DNA of 22,904 bases from the IMG/VR virus record IMGVR_UViG_3300025093_000133, positions 1 to 22,904 of that record; one strand, written 5' to 3'. The position numbers and the translations under genes are program-made. The notes under the pieces were generated by a model that saw nothing but the letters and a program-made list of their open reading frames with translations, ran no database searches and was not told the origin of the DNA. Shown in pieces: positions 1,679-15,550 of this stretch. Origin of the DNA: a virus. Position 1 is the stretch's first letter; each line of letters starts with the position of its first letter.

Positions 1679-4039
1679 TTAAACACCCCATATTGTTAAT
1701 ACGTGCCTTCCTTCGCTATCGCCTGTTCCTGATTCAATAGTCCAGCCACGGCTACCGTTAACTGTTGCAGCAATCATTTCACCTGATGGATTATAAAAAC
1801 CAGTATTTAAATCGCCTGTAAAAGTAATGCCTGGATCAGCTTCTGTTCCCCATGGAAATTGCGCTTGTCCTGATAGAACAATTAAATCATTATGTGACCT
1901 TACAGTTCCACTTACTGTTACATCACCACCAATGTTTGCACCACTTGTTACAAAAGCATCACCACTAACACGGAGGTCAGCATCAATAATAATTTGATTA
2001 TTAACGATAAGTTTTCCAAATTCACCTGTTGTAGTTTGTATTGTTGTTCCAGTAATTGTATTTCCTGACAGGTTTATAAAATTCCCATTCGTAGCGTTTA
2101 TGGAAGAACCTGTAATTGTAGTGCCGGTTAGATTTGTAAAGGTTCCATTTGTACTATTAACAGAAGTACCTGTAACAGTTGTGAATATTCCTGTTACAGC
2201 AGTAACGTTGCCAGTTGCAACAATATTATCATCGACTGTTAAACTACCTGATACCAATAAATCTCCACTGACAATTAATCCGCTAACAATATTTAATTCA
2301 TCAAAGGTTACTGTTCCACTTACGACAAGATCACCGCTAATAATTAAATCGTCATTTATAAATCCACTATTAAATACAATGTAATCAATACCGCTTAAAC
2401 TCGTCTCTCCATCACCAGTGATATCGCCAGAAGTAATAGACAAGTCCCCACTAATGGATGTATCACCGCTAATAATTAAATCTTCATTTATAAATCCACT
2501 ATTAAATACAATGTAATCAATACCGCTTAAACTCGTCTCTCCATCACCAGTGATATCGCCAGAAGTAATAGACAAGTCCCCACTAATGGATGTATCACCG
2601 CTAATTTGAACAGTGCCGTCAACAATAAGATTGCCACTGATATTTGTATTACCGATACCAGTAGTGTTACCAGTGACAATAAGATTGCCATTGATATTTG
2701 AATCACCTGTGACATTTAAGTTACCTCCTATTTCAATGTCGTTTACAATATTTAAATCATTACTAACATTTAAATCTTCGCCAATGTTGCCGTTACCGCT
2801 AACGAATAAACCAGTAAAAGTAGCGAAACCTCCTGAGAAAGTAGGTGCAGTAACGATTGTATTAAACGTTCCGCTTTGACCTGTAATTGTTTCACCTGAA
2901 ACAATTCCGGTTATTTCTAAAGGACCTCCGATATAAGTTCCACTAAGTACATATAAATTTTGCAGTACTGTTAAATCACCACTAATCTGCTGGTCACCTG
3001 AAAATTCAAGTTCAACTGCGTTTAAAGTATGGACATTAATAATTCCTGCGTTAATGGTTGTACCAGTAATCGTATCTCCTGAAATATTTTGAAATTCACC
3101 AGAAACGCCGGAAATAAAGTTTGCATTTAAAGTGTCAGTTGTAATGCCACTTGCAACAGTTAAACTTTGAAAATCACCAGAAGTTACTTGAAGGTTTTCA
3201 CCAGTTATTGTTGTTCCGGATAAATTTTGAAAATTACCACTGATTGCATTTACTGTGTTACCAGTAGCCAGTGTAAATAAAACAATATCTCCTGTGATAG
3301 CAGTTCCTGAGATACTGGTAAAAATTCCAGAGGTTACATTTAATTCAGTAACATTAACTAAATCACCCGTAATTGTTGCACCTGAAATAGTTCCTGATGC
3401 ATTGATATTATTAGCGTTTATATTACCGCTAATTGTTACGCCAGAAACAAAAGCAGTACCGACTTCTAAATAATCAAAGTATCCACTAACGGCATCAATT
3501 CCACGGGTTACAGTTAAATCAACTACTGTACCGCTTTGAATTCCTACGCTGTCTCCTGTGATTGTCGTGCCTGAAATTATATCGAAATAACCACTGGCAA
3601 AATCAATAGTGGTTCCGGTAGCAATTGTAAAGTTACCAGAAGTTGCTTCTAAGAATTGTGTATTTACATTTAAAACATCAAGCTGATTAGCACTAATATT
3701 TCCAGTTACAGTTATAGCGCCACCTACTAATAGGTCTTGGCGTAAGATTACATCTTGTTTAAAATCAGATTCTCCGCTGACTAAAAAATTAGATTCTGCA
3801 GTTAAGTCACCACTGATAACTGCATAACCAGAAACAAGAACATTTCCGACTATGAAAGGATCAGTTTCTCCTACGTTAATATAAAATTGATCTAAGTAAG
3901 TGCGAAGACCACTAAAATTAAGTTTTTTATTCCTAAGAGCAGGGTCAATTTCAAAGACCTGTACAAGCGTAACTAGGTCCTGATCTACAATATCAGTCGC
4001 CTCAATAGAGGGGAATTGAGTAATTCTTCTATTTGCCAC
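1679..4039 (-). CDS. Repetitive Ser-Gly-Thr fibre protein, 786 aa, probable tail fibre
   Basis: The N-terminal 55 residues (ITQFPSIEATDIVDQDLVTL...) look like an attachment domain of the kind that docks fibres to a baseplate or tail. Most of the rest is a low-complexity array built from SG and (I/T)TG steps such as SGTTITG and SGDLxVSG. It is very poor in Cys, Met and aromatic residues, which suggests a long beta-structured shaft. Residues about 482-569 are an almost exact tandem duplication of a 44-residue unit. The C-terminus has a GDLNTGFYNPSGE module, also found near the N-terminus of the next gene (1-1640), followed by a short HVLTIWGV end. No enzymatic domain was seen. A TATAAT sits 27 bp upstream of the start (4066-4071). 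Function as a host-contact fibre is inferred from repeat style and neighbour. Confidence 0.8.
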   Translation of the reverse strand: MANRRITQFPSIEATDIVDQDLVTLVQVFEIDPALRNKKLNFSGLRTYLDQFYINVGETDPFIVGNVLVSGYAVISGDLTAESNFLVSGESDFKQDVILRQDLLVGGAITVTGNISANQLDVLNVNTQFLEATSGNFTIATGTTIDFASGYFDIISGTTITGDSVGIQSGTVVDLTVTRGIDAVSGYFDYLEVGTAFVSGVTISGNINANNINASGTISGATITGDLVNVTELNVTSGIFTSISGTAITGDIVLFTLATGNTVNAISGNFQNLSGTTITGENLQVTSGDFQSLTVASGITTDTLNANFISGVSGEFQNISGDTITGTTINAGIINVHTLNAVELEFSGDQQISGDLTVLQNLYVLSGTYIGGPLEITGIVSGETITGQSGTFNTIVTAPTFSGGFATFTGLFVSGNGNIGEDLNVSNDLNIVNDIEIGGNLNVTGDSNINGNLIVTGNTTGIGNTNISGNLIVDGTVQISGDTSISGDLSITSGDITGDGETSLSGIDYIVFNSGFINEDLIISGDTSISGDLSITSGDITGDGETSLSGIDYIVFNSGFINDDLIISGDLVVSGTVTFDELNIVSGLIVSGDLLVSGSLTVDDNIVATGNVTAVTGIFTTVTGTSVNSTNGTFTNLTGTTITGSSINATNGNFINLSGNTITGTTIQTTTGEFGKLIVNNQIIIDADLRVSGDAFVTSGANIGGDVTVSGTVRSHNDLIVLSGQAQFPWGTEADPGITFTGDLNTGFYNPSGEMIAATVNGSRGWTIESGTGDSEGRHVLTIWGV
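2331..2594 (-). repeat. 132-bp tandem duplication inside the fibre gene
   Basis: Two head-to-tail copies (2331-2462 and 2463-2594) are followed by the first ten bases of a third. Copies differ at one base only (2351 G versus 2483 T, changing Asp to Glu). The unit is 44 codons, so the reading frame is kept and the shaft is lengthened by one module. Near-identity at silent positions indicates a very recent duplication or ongoing gene conversion. Confidence 0.95.
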
Positions 4040-4078: not shown

Positions 4079-4594
4079 TTATTTATCACGAATTTCAATT
4101 CGTGGCAAGATATCGCTAATAAATCCAACGCCTGCTTGCACTCCAATTACACCAGTGATTGCGATTAGAAAAACAACTGCTAGTTCAGCAATTGTTAAAT
4201 TTCTACGTAAATAAACAACATTTGGTTGAGGAGCTGTTTGATTTACTGGCTGCACGGTTTGGGGAGCAGCTACTGGACGCTTTGAAGTCACTTGTTGAAT
4301 AGCATCTTCTAATGCCTTTTTCCTAAGTTCTGAGAAATCAGGGACAGGCATTTGGGGAGCCTGCGGCTGGTTAATTTGTTGAGAAGAAAGTTTTGAGGCA
4401 ATCTCCTGTTGTTGTAAGGCTTGCTGTTGCAAAGCTTGCTGCTGAATATTTTCTAAATATTTTTGTCTTTCTGCTGCGTCAAATTCTGAAGGACTATTGT
4501 AACGCTGACCATTAGGATCAGAGTAATACATTCCTTGTTGAGGAGCTTGGCTAGGAGTAACAAATTGCTCTTGAGGAGCTACTTGATCTTCCAT
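4079..4594 (-). CDS. Gln/Pro-rich protein with one C-terminal membrane segment
   Basis: The start was placed at the ATG at 4594 (MEDQVAPQEQ...), not at 4726 where the frame first allows one. The longer version would overlap the divergent gene at 4642, and its extra 44 residues look like translated non-coding DNA. The 171-aa protein has a Gln/Pro-rich first half with a QQQALQQQALQQQ stretch predicted to be helical or coiled. One hydrophobic segment lies near residues 134-158 (IAELAVVFLIAITGVIG...), followed by a short charged tail ending in DK. There is no signal peptide. It sits directly upstream of the fibre genes on the same strand. It could be a membrane-anchored virion or tail accessory protein, or an inner-membrane protein acting during infection; the sequence does not decide. 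The family is not recognised. Confidence 0.65.
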   Translation of the reverse strand: MEDQVAPQEQFVTPSQAPQQGMYYSDPNGQRYNSPSEFDAAERQKYLENIQQQALQQQALQQQEIASKLSSQQINQPQAPQMPVPDFSELRKKALEDAIQQVTSKRPVAAPQTVQPVNQTAPQPNVVYLRRNLTIAELAVVFLIAITGVIGVQAGVGFISDILPRIEIRDK

Positions 4595-4611
4595 AAAAAT
4601 CACAGTATGTT

Positions 4612-4624
4612 TACAGAAACTGTA
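4612..4624. promoter_or_regulatory. Inverted repeat TACAG-AAA-CTGTA, candidate operator
   Basis: A perfect 5-bp inverted repeat with an AAA centre lies in the 47-bp gap between the divergent starts at 4594 and 4642. It lies 18 bp upstream of an HTH-protein gene, a position suited to autoregulation of a divergent promoter. The short arms make chance possible. Confidence 0.35.
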
Positions 4625-4641
4625 GCATTTAATTTTAAGAA

Positions 4642-5088
4642 ATGTCAGATATTTCCGCATCTCTTGATGCGATCGGCGGTGAATTAAAAGCCATTCGCCA
4701 TATACTTTCCTGCCTTTGGCATTCAAAGTATTTCAATGATGAAACCGATCAGGTTAGCCCTGAGTTCTATGCAGATGAGTACATCTCTACTACTGAGTGT
4801 GCAAAGCGTCTAGGTGTCACTGAACAGACAATTAGGAACTGGATTTTGAATGGTAAAAGCAAAAAGAAAAAAAGAGGTGTTGCCTGGGTCCAAGGTATTC
4901 ATTATATTCTTATTCCCACTGGTACACAGAAGAATTTGATTCGTATCGGCTGGAATAATCTCGTTGCTAAATTCGCAAAAGGAGAAGAGGCAGGATTAAG
5001 AAGCTTTGATGAGGGAGAAAAACTTTATGAAAGAAAGCGTCCGACTTTATTTAATGTACCTGGAGTAAGGCAAGACAATGAAGAATAG
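4642..5088 (+). CDS. Excisionase/MerR-like helix-turn-helix protein, 148 aa
   Basis: Residues about 48-70 (STTECAKRLGVTEQTIRNWI) form a clear helix-turn-helix of the MerR/excisionase type. The wing-like stretch GIHYILIPTG and a basic KSKKKKRG segment follow. The N-terminal 35 residues look helical and may mediate dimerisation. The likely role is DNA-binding regulator or recombination-directionality-like factor. It is the first gene of a rightward cassette, and its 3' end overlaps the next gene by 11 bp. The start is the ATG at 4642, with only a weak upstream AAGA. A small inverted repeat just upstream is a candidate binding site for its own product. The C-terminal 50 residues match nothing I recognise. 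It has the same overall layout (HTH then GxHY) as the protein at 13103-13327. Confidence 0.7.
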   Translation: MSDISASLDAIGGELKAIRHILSCLWHSKYFNDETDQVSPEFYADEYISTTECAKRLGVTEQTIRNWILNGKSKKKKRGVAWVQGIHYILIPTGTQKNLIRIGWNNLVAKFAKGEEAGLRSFDEGEKLYERKRPTLFNVPGVRQDNEE

Positions 5089-12604: not shown

Positions 12605-12973
12605 TTACGCTACTTTAAAATTATTTTCATAATAGCTGTCATCAGCTATGAATTCTATTTTATCTCCTTTTGTCCAGGCAATAATTAATTCTAAATTTTT
12701 TTCTTCATAGAAATCTTGGTTTTTGTACCATTCTTCCATGTCTTCTGATCCTTTATTCCCATTACAACGTAAGCAAGCAGGTACAAGGTTGAACCAAGCA
12801 CTAGAGCCAGACTTAAACTTTGGAATAATGTGATCAAGACTAGTAGCTGTATCACCGCAGTAAGCACACTTATGCCCCCATGCGTCATATATACATTGTC
12901 TAAATCTTCGCTTGGCTAGTTTCGGAGTCAGTTCAATCAGAAGGACGAGGGGTTCGTTCTCCGTTCTGAACAT
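12605..12973 (-). CDS. HNH endonuclease, 122 aa
   Basis: The HNH core spans residues 36-75. Zinc ligands are CAYC (Cys36, Cys39) and CLRC (Cys67, Cys70). The catalytic part is LDHIIPK (Asp47-His48), followed by FNLVPAC with Asn62 and a final NGNKG. The length is normal for a stand-alone phage HNH enzyme, either a homing endonuclease or one assisting DNA packaging. No terminase gene is visible next to it, so homing or DNA degradation is equally likely. It is the first gene of a leftward unit and abuts the 802-aa gene directly. A consensus TTGACA on the minus strand at 13021-13026 lies upstream. There is no Shine-Dalgarno before the ATG at 12973. Confidence 0.85.
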   Translation of the reverse strand: MFRTENEPLVLLIELTPKLAKRRFRQCIYDAWGHKCAYCGDTATSLDHIIPKFKSGSSAWFNLVPACLRCNGNKGSEDMEEWYKNQDFYEEKNLELIIAWTKGDKIEFIADDSYYENNFKVA

Positions 12974-13051: not shown

Positions 13052-13079
13052 TTGACACAACTTCATTTGAGTCTATTTT
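13052..13079 (+). promoter_or_regulatory. Candidate rightward promoter for the Xis-like gene
   Basis: TTGACA at 13052-13057 and TATTTT at 13074-13079 with a 16-bp spacer, predicting a leader of about 17 nt before the ATG at 13103. The -35 is perfect and the -10 matches four of six. It stands back to back with the leftward TTGACA at 13021. Confidence 0.45.
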
Positions 13080-13102: not shown

Positions 13103-13327
13103 ATGGAATCTCTTTCAAAGGATTGGGTGCCTTCGCACCGTGCGCAAAAGATCCTAAACATCAGCCGTGACGATCTACATCGCATGCGTGATAACGGAAC
13201 CTTTAAGTTAGGAAGGCATTATGGAGCAGGACCTATGACTAGGTCAAGGGACTCTTATTACTGGCATGTACCACGGGTAGAGAGATTGCTTAAGAGGGAA
13301 CAAGACAACGGTTCTCTTGCCTCTTAA
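13103..13327 (+). CDS. Excisionase-like helix-turn-helix protein, 74 aa
   Basis: This short protein has W8, then a helix-turn-helix (AQKILNISRDDLHRMRDNG, about 14-32), then FKLGRHY and SYYWHVPRVERLL. The order W, HTH with ILxxSR, LR-x-G, GxHY, W, VE-x-x-L matches small excisionase/regulator proteins found beside recombinases in cyanobacterial mobile elements. The role is inferred as DNA-bending or directionality factor, or a repressor. It has its own TTGACA promoter upstream and no Shine-Dalgarno; the bases before the ATG read CCTACCTCCCC. Its 3' end overlaps the convergent integrase-like gene by 38 bp, and this overlap forms a hairpin. Confidence 0.7.
   Translation: MESLSKDWVPSHRAQKILNISRDDLHRMRDNGTFKLGRHYGAGPMTRSRDSYYWHVPRVERLLKREQDNGSLAS
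13290..13327. other. Stop-to-stop hairpin shared by two convergent genes
   Basis: Arms TTAAGAGG (13290-13297) and CCTCTTAA (13320-13327) pair perfectly, and an inner stem CAAGA/TCTTG (13301-13305, 13315-13319) encloses a 9-nt loop, with GAA bulged. The outer ends are the TAA stops of the two convergent genes. It lacks a U-tract on either strand, so it is not a classic terminator, but it could end or stabilise both messages. Confidence 0.6.
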
Positions 13328-13715
13328 TTGGTGTGTAATAGACCTTGCGTACTTTGTAGGCTAGTAAAAGTCCTTCAACGCTAAGTCTGACATCGTCTCT
13401 TTCTAGTGCTTTTCCTAAATTGTTTAGGATCGTATCCCAACGGCTTCTCAATCTGAGAGGCTGTTTTTCTTTGAGGGAAAATAAGAAAACCCACTGTGGA
13501 TGTAGCGGGCGTACTGGTCTTTTTTTATTTAATAGATTAATGGAATCATCATCATTCCATGTGAAGCCTTTAAGTTCATTTGGCGTCTTGCCAAAGGTGG
13601 CAACCATGCCCATTAACCATCCCACGTCATGGTGGCCATTCAAGGCTCTTAACGAAAACACTTCATCAACGATCCGTGGATCACTCGGTAAATGCCGGTG
13701 AATCATGGTAATCAA
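13290..13715 (-). CDS. Shortened tyrosine-recombinase-like protein, catalytic residues replaced
   Basis: The stretch WLMGMVATFGKTPNELKGFTW... (about residues 33-53), then INLLNKKRPVRPLHPQWVFLF, follows the catalytic domain of tyrosine recombinases of the cyanobacterial type (GxRPxEL, then a Lys hairpin, then RPV-PL-P-W). At the first catalytic position GLRPxEL reads GKTPNEL, so the essential Arg is Thr. The HxxR box seems to be YKVR in LLLAYKVRKVYY (about 115-126). The protein stops 15 residues later, with no room for the usual catalytic Tyr region. At 141 aa it also lacks the N-terminal core-binding domain. It is therefore probably not an active integrase; it could be a DNA-binding remnant or regulator. 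A near-consensus promoter lies upstream at 13808-13836. Confidence 0.6.
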   Translation of the reverse strand: MITMIHRHLPSDPRIVDEVFSLRALNGHHDVGWLMGMVATFGKTPNELKGFTWNDDDSINLLNKKRPVRPLHPQWVFLFSLKEKQPLRLRSRWDTILNNLGKALERDDVRLSVEGLLLAYKVRKVYYTPIKRQENRCLVPS

Positions 13716-13781
13716 GCTTCAATAGGTGAACTATAAACACGAAGCAAACCCAATAACGTATTTAATGTTCTTTTAATCAAA

Positions 13782-13809
13782 AAGACTTATGTCTTCCTGA
13801 TTAAGACAT
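13782..13809 (-). promoter_or_regulatory. Alternative hairpins around the start of the integrase-like transcript
   Basis: AAGAC-ATAA-GTCTT (minus strand, 13782-13795) is followed by TTTGATT, and overlaps a second pairing ATGTCTT/AAGACAT (13789-13795 with 13803-13809). The first lies in the predicted leader just after the start site and resembles a weak early terminator or a 5' stabilising stem. It could equally end the transcript of the 570-aa gene. Confidence 0.35.
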
Positions 13810-13836
13810 TATAAAGGTTAAACTTTGTCAAGTCAA
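13808..13836 (-). promoter_or_regulatory. Strong sigma-70 promoter for the integrase-like gene
   Basis: On the minus strand: TTGACT (13831-13836), a 17-bp spacer, and TATAAT (13808-13813). This is the best promoter match in the window. The expected start near 13801 leaves a leader of about 85 nt before the ATG at 13715. Confidence 0.65.
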
Positions 13837-13837
13837 A

Positions 13838-15550
13838 TTAGTAGTTAGTACCTATGGGGAATTCCCAGGGTTTTACGTCGTAGTTGGGACTATTACCTGC
13901 TGAAGTTGGAACCTGCCCAGATACTGGTGCATATCTTTGATCGTCTTTATCTATCATAATGAAATTTTGTAATTGAATAAATTCTGTAGGAATATTTATC
14001 AAACGCTGAATCATCGGGAAGACCATTGGTGACTGGAAGTTATAGGGAGGAACGTCCATGTAACTTAAACCATAGGTTGTTAAGCGTTCAAAATATTTAC
14101 GCTGTTGTTTTCTTGTCTTATCAACCAATCTTTCTTCCCATTCGCTAATGAGTCCTACTTCTACAGGAAAGTCAGAAGGTTCATTTGGAAATACTCCATC
14201 TTGATAACGCATTGCATAAATGTGTTTGCAATAGCGGTATTGATCAAGAGTATATGTCCAGTTATCTGTAATTTCTGTAATAGTATCTCCACTTTGTTTG
14301 TAATCTCCATAAATTGCTAATCCTTCAGCCACTGCATTTGGATTTGGTTTATCTCCAAAACCTCTTCTATATAAGCCGCCAAAGTCGTCAAAAACTTCTG
14401 GTTGTTGCCTATAAAGTTTTTTTGGATCTCTTGCATCTTTACCTGATTCAGAAAGAGAAACACCCGAGGTATTGAAATCAGTAGGCTCTCCACTTGGATA
14501 AACAATAGTTAACAATCGATTATTAACAAGTCCACTTGTAATTTCTGTCTGAGCAGCATTCAAAAAATTACCTTTAAATTTAATTTCTTCATAGCGTCCT
14601 GGTTTAACTGTTGCTGCTCTTTGTTTAAAAAATAAAGGCTTTTTCTTTAAGCCAAGACTTGATAAGTATGTGTAATTTCTTCTTGTAAAATCTTGGCAAG
14701 TACAACAGTACCTAGCGCCAAGCTGAAGGAATCTACCTGATTCAAATGGAATTCTAGAGGGTGTTTGAAGAACACCGTCAAGTGTTGCTTGAGTTGAGCC
14801 TAGTTTTTCAATTTGAAGGATACCTTGATATTGATCAACATTAACTAAAACAGCTTGTACAAATCCAAATCTTCTGCCTGTTTGAGGATCTCTTGTTTCT
14901 TTATCAATCGGTGTACCAGAGACAGTTAAAATTGTGTCTTCTAATGTATCTCCATTGATGGGTTTTGCTTCTCTTCCATCAGGTAGTTCAACAAATAAAG
15001 GAGGAGGTACTGGGCCACTTATTCCTGATATTGTGACTGAACTAAATGTACCGCTTAATTGTATATACCAATAATTTGTATTATCTTGTCCTTTGCCTAA
15101 GAATAATTTGTCAGGGGGAGCCTCGCCTGATACTGCAAGTCTTACACCTTGTTGATCTTCTAGGTTGTCAAATCTTAAATTTCCTGCTCTTGTAACACCG
15201 CACCATTGCATTCCCAATTCTTTATTTTCACTTGCATAACCTTGAATTGCGCCTGTAATTACCGGGCTTCTATTTCCAATGATGTCATTCCCACTTGTAA
15301 AAGGAATATTGTATTCAAAGTTATAAAAGAACGGCCTCAGGACGCCATTAGCAGCTCCAAGCTCCCATCCTCTTCTCCACCTTGACCAAGTTGATTCACG
15401 GTTACTTGTATATAAAGAATCTGGAACGCTACCTCCAAATTCACCTTTAACAGGTGCTACTTTAAATTTTTTAATCTCTGGCTTACCGATATCAGAAAAG
15501 GAGGAACTTCCGAAATTTCCGAAGTTTCCTCCTGGCCTTCTTCTTGCCAT
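13838..15550 (-). CDS. Probable virion structural protein, 570 aa
   Basis: The N-terminus is basic and Gly-rich (MARRRPGGNFGNFGSSSF). The body is mixed alpha/beta with Ser-Gly-Thr surface-like stretches near 165-180 (SGTFSSVTISGISG). There is a CCTC cluster near residue 285 (ARYCCTCQDF) and an aromatic-rich region near 430-445 (YRYCKHIYAMRYQDG). The C-terminus is Pro/Tyr rich and contains VPPYNFQSPMVFP. No known fold or enzyme motif is recognised. It lies one base downstream of the 259-aa gene in the leftward virion series and is the last gene of that series before the regulatory island. Tail or neck function is possible; this is context only. Confidence 0.65.
   Translation of the reverse strand: MARRRPGGNFGNFGSSSFSDIGKPEIKKFKVAPVKGEFGGSVPDSLYTSNRESTWSRWRRGWELGAANGVLRPFFYNFEYNIPFTSGNDIIGNRSPVITGAIQGYASENKELGMQWCGVTRAGNLRFDNLEDQQGVRLAVSGEAPPDKLFLGKGQDNTNYWYIQLSGTFSSVTISGISGPVPPPLFVELPDGREAKPINGDTLEDTILTVSGTPIDKETRDPQTGRRFGFVQAVLVNVDQYQGILQIEKLGSTQATLDGVLQTPSRIPFESGRFLQLGARYCCTCQDFTRRNYTYLSSLGLKKKPLFFKQRAATVKPGRYEEIKFKGNFLNAAQTEITSGLVNNRLLTIVYPSGEPTDFNTSGVSLSESGKDARDPKKLYRQQPEVFDDFGGLYRRGFGDKPNPNAVAEGLAIYGDYKQSGDTITEITDNWTYTLDQYRYCKHIYAMRYQDGVFPNEPSDFPVEVGLISEWEERLVDKTRKQQRKYFERLTTYGLSYMDVPPYNFQSPMVFPMIQRLINIPTEFIQLQNFIMIDKDDQRYAPVSGQVPTSAGNSPNYDVKPWEFPIGTNY

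Follow-up and report, generated by a model that had tools for sequence, protein, structure and literature searches.

A tyrosine-recombinase domain cut short of its catalytic residues, convergent with an Xis-like gene in an S-EIV1-like cyanophage: a possible DNA-binding pair

The window, meaning the whole stretch of DNA analysed, is a linear virus record of 22,904 bases, part of the genome of an S-EIV1-like cyanophage. A gene for a shortened tyrosine-recombinase catalytic domain without the catalytic set (hereafter Int-like) lies tail-to-tail with a gene for a small basic HTH protein (hereafter Xis-like), and the two are flanked by an HNH endonuclease gene and by a 570-aa ORF. Promoter-like sequences precede both genes, and an inverted repeat lies in the putative leader of the Int-like gene (Table 1).

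Table 1. Features of the Int-like/Xis-like locus (positions are those of the window)
Feature	Position	Strand	Basis or remark
HNH endonuclease gene	12605..12973	-	conserved neighbour
Promoter-like TTGACA-16-TATTTT before Xis-like	13052..13079	+	10/12 consensus bases
Xis-like, small basic HTH protein, 74 aa, convergent with Int-like	13103..13327	+	profile; HTH_17 E 0.01, below cut-off
Tail-to-tail frame overlap, 38 nt	13290..13327	.	ORF coordinates; 32-86 nt in 80/80 relatives
Int-like, shortened tyrosine-recombinase catalytic domain without catalytic set	13290..13715	-	ORF, profile, fold
Inverted repeat, possible 5′-leader hairpin directly after -10 box	13773..13804	-	in close relatives, covarying arms and a conserved ATAA loop
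Promoter-like TTGACT-17-TATAAT into Int-like	13808..13836	-	11/12 consensus bases
570-aa ORF, function unassigned	13838..15550	-	conserved neighbour upstream of Int-like

Along its full length, the major capsid protein shares 83.5 % identity with that of Synechococcus phage S-EIV1 (KJ410740), the sole phage record matched, and the 570-aa neighbour is 43.2 % identical to its S-EIV1 counterpart. The window is thus placed in the S-EIV1 lineage by its capsid, its neighbouring genes and a gene order in common with S-EIV1, a phage whose lineage is called widespread in the title of a reference that PMC6157547 cites (in excerpt). From about 8.7 kb on, the large ORFs are on the minus strand, with the Xis-like gene as the exception. 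Elsewhere in the window, positions 4642–5088 (+) encode another HTH protein (MerR E 0.0004 and HTH_17 E 0.0009, both below cut-offs), and the start of this ORF overlaps that of a divergent 215-aa ORF (4079–4726, −). A 786-aa ORF at 1679–4039 (−) is composed of numerous near-repeats in which Ser-Gly-Asp motifs abound, and may encode a repetitive tail or fibre protein.

The Int-like ORF encodes 141 aa from a TTG, or 138 aa from an in-frame ATG at 13706. The RPV-PL-P-W signature pointed out in the first-pass annotation is read in the protein as RPVRPLHPQW. Pfam and PHROG searches with the window protein returned nothing at E ≤ 1; with all 39 members of the Int-like profile (A1), PHROGs gave three families, hit by one member each, with a best E of 0.043. 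Profile comparison against ten full-length integrases, however, gave an hhalign E of 1.3e-13 (probability 98.1), and against the integrase of cyanophage P-SS2 (gp101) alone an E of 8.6e-5 (probability 60). The AF2 model of the protein (pLDDT 87.7, pTM 0.82) was compared with 114 chains by VIA-align, and tyrosine recombinases make up 24 of the 25 listed PDB entries (Z 6.1–9.6), the remaining one having a Z of 2.2. Foldseek alone returned no match at E ≤ 0.001, with recombinases heading its PDB list, and a PDB sequence search with the Int-like profile matched nothing. The recombinase similarity first read by eye is therefore recovered by profile search and by structural alignment.

Scans of viral contigs found 119 relatives at first and 312 with the profile, which excludes a chance ORF. 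The best 80 matches of each Int-like and Xis-like scan (119, 312 and 524 relatives) were kept, and all fractions given here are of kept loci, which are not a random sample and in which several contigs recur in more than one set. From all scans, 129 viral Int-like ORFs were read, of which 96 are unique. A scan of genome contigs added 12 relatives, of which three are short and lie on phage-like contigs, and nine are cyanobacterial ORFs 466–525 aa long. Contigs with both Int-like and Xis-like genes are also held by MAGs labelled Aliivibrio, ‘bacterium’ and Euryarchaeota (L085, L086, L087), and are probably phage contigs in the wrong bin.

The cyanobacterial relatives are full-length tyrosine recombinases from Aliterella, Calothrix, Rivularia, Richelia and Plectonema (L088–L096), to which L195–L223 can be added. 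They have WLYGM.ATYG..P.EL and PLHPQW or PLYPHW in common with the Int-like family. In the nine named ORFs (L088–L096) the catalytic set is invariant, whereas the Int-like forms are without the N-terminal domains, Arg I, the box III His and the nucleophilic Tyr. Full catalytic sets are confined to this separate, full-length group, in which 17 of 24 rows tested match all four simple catalytic motif patterns. A quick tree built from 15 short forms and 24 full-length ones divides them into these two groups with a support of 100, and by this tree the short forms are one clade.

The loss of catalytic residues runs through the whole family. The Thr of GKTP aligns to the Arg I position, as the first-pass annotation had it. 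Across the 95 unique ORFs scored, this column holds Lys (40), Thr (32), Ser (7), His (6), Asp (5), Asn (3) or Ala (2), and the 96th (L184), missed by the Arg I pattern, reads His; Arg never occurs. The ORFs are 132–155 aa from the chosen start (median 140), with open frames, against 466–525 aa in the nine named full-length relatives, and N-terminal DNA-binding domains are absent. They end 16–34 residues beyond the last conserved Arg, and consequently box III with its His/Trp and the nucleophilic Tyr are missing. The window protein had been said to end before any catalytic Tyr; by alignment it also ends before the box III His. Of the features proposed for comparison among relatives, the short form is common to all 129 viral ORFs read, and the same Thr (as GKTP) and YKVR are found in 25 and 11, respectively, of the 96 unique ORFs. 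A one-off truncation, with full catalytic sets among close homologues, is ruled out by the family of short ORFs and by the short-form clade. HPQWV and K63 are invariant in the A1 alignment, although K63 is aligned to the β2–β3 loop Lys across a shortened loop. The predicted pI is 9.0–10.1 in all 96 unique ORFs.

The reading of YKVR as the HxxR box was most likely an error of register. In the MAFFT alignment LLLAYKVR lies over LRHAYAIR of the full-length domains and not over YDLRH. The same register was obtained with hhalign of the C-terminal halves, a weak match (E 0.34), and agrees with the predicted helix starts at V111 in the Int-like protein and P134 in the full-length domain, although the model of the latter is of low confidence (pLDDT 54) and the Arg II register is moderately certain. 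The residues that correspond to the known catalytic motifs (Arg I, loop Lys, Tyr-x-x-Arg II, box III His and Tyr) do not vary among the nine full-length catalytic domains. The Tyr at the His place of HxxR (Y135, 9/9) is therefore normal in full-length relatives, and is no sign of a dead enzyme. In the LRHAYAIR register the Arg II column of the 96 unique Int-like ORFs reads Leu (79), Ile (13), Val (3) or Met (1), such that Arg II has probably been replaced by a hydrophobic residue, and the domain would be deader than the first-pass annotation held.

Both genes appear to be maintained. Median dN/dS is 0.152 for Int-like (maximum 0.403, 299 pairs) and 0.098 for Xis-like (maximum 0.413, 159 pairs), values from nonindependent pairs, with pairs beyond divergence limits dropped and the last 28 (Int-like) and 20 (Xis-like) codons omitted, the longest Xis-like overlaps exceeding 20 codons. 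On these values both genes are under purifying selection, and the earlier description of an intact frame rather than a decaying pseudogene holds for the Int-like family at large.

The Xis-like protein of the window has a pI of 10.1. HTH_17 is matched weakly by 20 of 40 family members, and excisionase models likewise (DUF1233 in 4/40, best E 0.028; TIGR01764 in 2/40, best E 0.019; Phage_Cox in 1/40); no curated cut-off is reached. All 80 kept Int-like loci contain the gene, convergent with Int-like and overlapping it, and each of 17 long relatives (52–83 kb) has one Xis-like place. Of the other neighbours of the Int-like gene, the 570-aa ORF is found in 80/80 kept loci and the HNH gene in 76/80; in the four contigs without HNH, the contig ends shortly behind the Xis-like gene.

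Seen from the Xis-like side, the association is looser. That scan found 524 relatives, and among the 95 loci kept the Int-like gene is present in 77, on the opposite strand and overlapping in all 77. It is missing from the other 18, two of which (L254, L281) are undecidable at contig ends, which rules out a fixed two-gene unit. In L264, L271, L272 and L304–L310 the slot is filled by an ORF resembling the 74-aa ORF of S-EIV1, and in L248, L252, L253, L285, L303 and L315 the 570-aa ORF lies close to the Xis-like gene with no notable ORF between. The S-EIV1 ORF (L083, 5040–5264) belongs to a family of 73–75 aa, also seen in some relatives, that is unrelated to Int-like. A quick tree of the 570-aa ORF, enriched on purpose in rows without Int-like, has 55 rows (6 of 61 planned rows were dropped because the neighbour ORF was missing or <200 aa), of which 14 lack Int-like. 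On it the presence of Int-like changes at least nine times, seven of these being forced by starred branches. The repeated absence of Int-like from loci that retain Xis-like shows that the pair is not obligatory; the pairing with an HTH gene noted earlier is thus constant only when viewed from the Int-like gene. Conversely, Int-like was never seen without Xis-like in the loci checked, and Xis-like stands alone in some phages, which suggests that Int-like depends on Xis-like.

For the promoter-like sequence into the Int-like gene, 0.01 occurrences of the exact pattern are expected in the window by chance. The near-consensus promoter of the first-pass annotation is not general in the family: one as strong is present in 12 of 91 unique upstream regions, against a shuffled mean of 7.9. 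A −10-like hexamer (a loose pattern, counted without a chance control) occurs at −122 to −98 in 84 of 94 regions. The inverted repeat that follows it has a mean score of 7.10 versus 5.25 when shuffled, with p ≤ 0.05 in 30 of 84. In seven marine relatives of one register, hand-picked from 14 rows, 87.1 % of stem cells are paired and five pairs are changed on both sides, a covariation reached by 1 of 500 shuffles; over all 14 rows a register shift of one base obscures the signal, and a slide of −1 scores higher on covariation. From these alignments the inverted repeat looks like a hairpin at the transcript start. It was not found in lineages in which the 570-aa ORF reaches Int-like, such as L009 and L012, and in other clades the arms at roughly this position differ in sequence. 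No tRNA gene was found in the window. A tRNA or Rfam relic of an att site was rejected, since apart from the lack of a tRNA only two sub-threshold microRNA matches, both on the hairpin, were obtained.

A working integrase was also sought elsewhere in these phages and in cyanobacteria. The full-length integrase profile (A3) matches one place in each of the 17 long relatives, whose records may be incomplete, and that place is the Int-like ORF. It has no match in S-EIV1 (P-SS2 control, E 6.6e-104), and in viral contigs it added nine Int-like loci, all of them short, and none of full length. PF00589 found nothing in the 17 long relatives but missed the P-SS2 integrase too, and was set aside in favour of A3. 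A resolvase search found none in 19 records, and a scan of viral contigs with the P-SS2 integrase found no relatives. The Int-like profile, with E values of 1e-57 to 1e-66 in phage records, matches 57 of 386 cyanobacterial genomes with a best E of 2.7e-11, mostly in long ORFs; among the matches listed, five rows are <300 aa. No integrated copy of the short phage form was seen in the 386 genomes. Three cyanobacterial genomes (G020, G021, G022) hold 4–7 integrase-family matches each, which implies a sizeable recombinase set in some hosts.

Taken together, these observations raise the possibility, favoured here with somewhat less than even confidence, that an inherited int–xis module has been turned into a DNA-binding and probably regulatory pair. 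In an S-EIV1-like cyanophage, the integrase would have been pared down to the first two thirds or so of the catalytic domain, and recombination chemistry would have been lost with it. Both basic proteins may still bind DNA. The Xis-like protein would act as the sequence-specific regulator that sets the site, and the Int-like protein as an optional co-binder that works only with Xis-like and modifies the complex. The outcome would most likely be control of transcription or of DNA state around the late-gene block. Of the repurposed lysogeny module put forward in the first-pass annotation, the loss of recombinase residues and the retention of selection and of a basic fold are kept; YKVR was probably read out of register, a promoter of this strength is seen in a minority of relatives, and the pairing is not obligatory.

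Several other readings have to be weighed. Were the shortened integrase a neutral relic in the course of decay, its repeated absence from related phages would be expected; the low dN/dS over 299 pairs, the open frames of 132–155 aa in 96 unique ORFs and the single clade make such decay highly improbable. It is also unlikely, if less so, that the Int-like protein is a folded basic protein acting outside DNA binding, on RNA or on a host protein, its ancestry having supplied a stable fold only. The invariance of HPQWV and K63 after the catalytic features have gone would suit such a role, yet the constant pairing with Xis-like and the high pI fit DNA at least as well. There is, in addition, a slim chance that the phage borrows a full-length host integrase in trans, with both small proteins serving as architectural factors at the phage att site. 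Related integrases are indeed present in host genomes, and the Xis-like protein resembles small HTH proteins beside full integrases in P-SS2 and at two cyanobacterial loci. On the other hand, the window has no tRNA gene, the matches in the 386 genomes are weak, mostly long ORFs and include no integrated phage form, and the N-terminal domain by which lambda integrase contacts Xis is absent from Int-like.

Tail exchange between recombinase subunits is known from work on lambda Int, Cre and Xer, and a domain that retains the catalytic core and has no tail might act as a decoy. The Int-like protein would dock on and poison same-family integrases of host islands, satellites or prophages, with Xis-like biasing excision, such that competing elements could neither integrate nor remobilise during infection. 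The host phylum does have full-length relatives, as the 57 matched genomes attest, and Int-like is patchy and not found without Xis-like, as might be expected of an accessory counter-element; the similarity to host integrases is distant, however, and poisoning of this kind, like its effect on competing elements, is judged rather unlikely. A related version, in which the dead domain pairs with the cyanobacterial integrases or occupies their sites and blocks rival elements together with Xis-like, is given little credence. If it were true, the patchy retention of Int-like would track rival islands, satellites and prophages.

Whichever use applies, S-EIV1-like phages carry an unannotated conserved family that appears to be built from a dead integrase, and that lysogeny tools which count integrases would miss or misread. 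The family may offer a natural example in which the catalytic domain of a recombinase is retained for a use other than recombination. Relatives with both genes, with Xis-like only or, as in P-SS2, with a full integrase make the function testable by comparison.

Among known systems, P2 Cox and lambda Xis are phage Cox/Xis-type excisionases that also regulate transcription. The Xis-like protein is likewise a small basic HTH protein encoded beside an integrase gene, but its partner is not catalytic. The closest layout is that of P-SS2, in which a 68-aa HTH protein (gp100) and the integrase (gp101) are encoded convergently with ends overlapping by 6 nt. The Xis-like profile matches gp100 with an E of 4.6e-8 by hhalign and 2.5e-8 by hmmsearch. 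The P-SS2 integrase differs from Int-like in being 457 aa long and in matching all four catalytic motif patterns. Among 42 full-length cyanobacterial loci (some overlapping), an Xis-profile HTH gene lies directly upstream of the integrase on the same strand in L201 (E 9.1e-11) and is convergent with it at a distance of 443 nt in L220 (E 3.7e-9); the other 40 have none within the available flanks. By these profile matches Xis-like is related to small HTH proteins encoded next to integrases, and the layout and profile kinship suggest that the int–xis module may have been inherited from a P-SS2-like ancestor. For P-SS2 itself an attP has been proposed for the integrase, and int but no excisionase is reported in the excerpted account of its authors (PMC2784084). 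The comparison with Xis-like brings out gp100 (L084, 5041–5247), which overlaps the integrase end, as a candidate for that excisionase. S-EIV1 resembles the window in its capsid and in having Xis-like and HNH genes at the same place, but is without Int-like and has the unrelated 74-aa ORF in its slot. A more distant parallel is the Crypton case, which is eukaryotic, from an unrelated context and without a known Xis partner. Domesticated Crypton tyrosine recombinases of eukaryotes are an instance of reuse after domestication, according to an excerpt of PMC3212892. A literature search found no description of a dead or shortened integrase family of the Int-like kind, a result that does not in itself prove absence. 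Some lytic cyanophages are known to retain a functional integrase without forming stable lysogens (PMC8776855, in excerpt), and compared with these the Int-like family appears to have gone further, its recombination chemistry having been lost.
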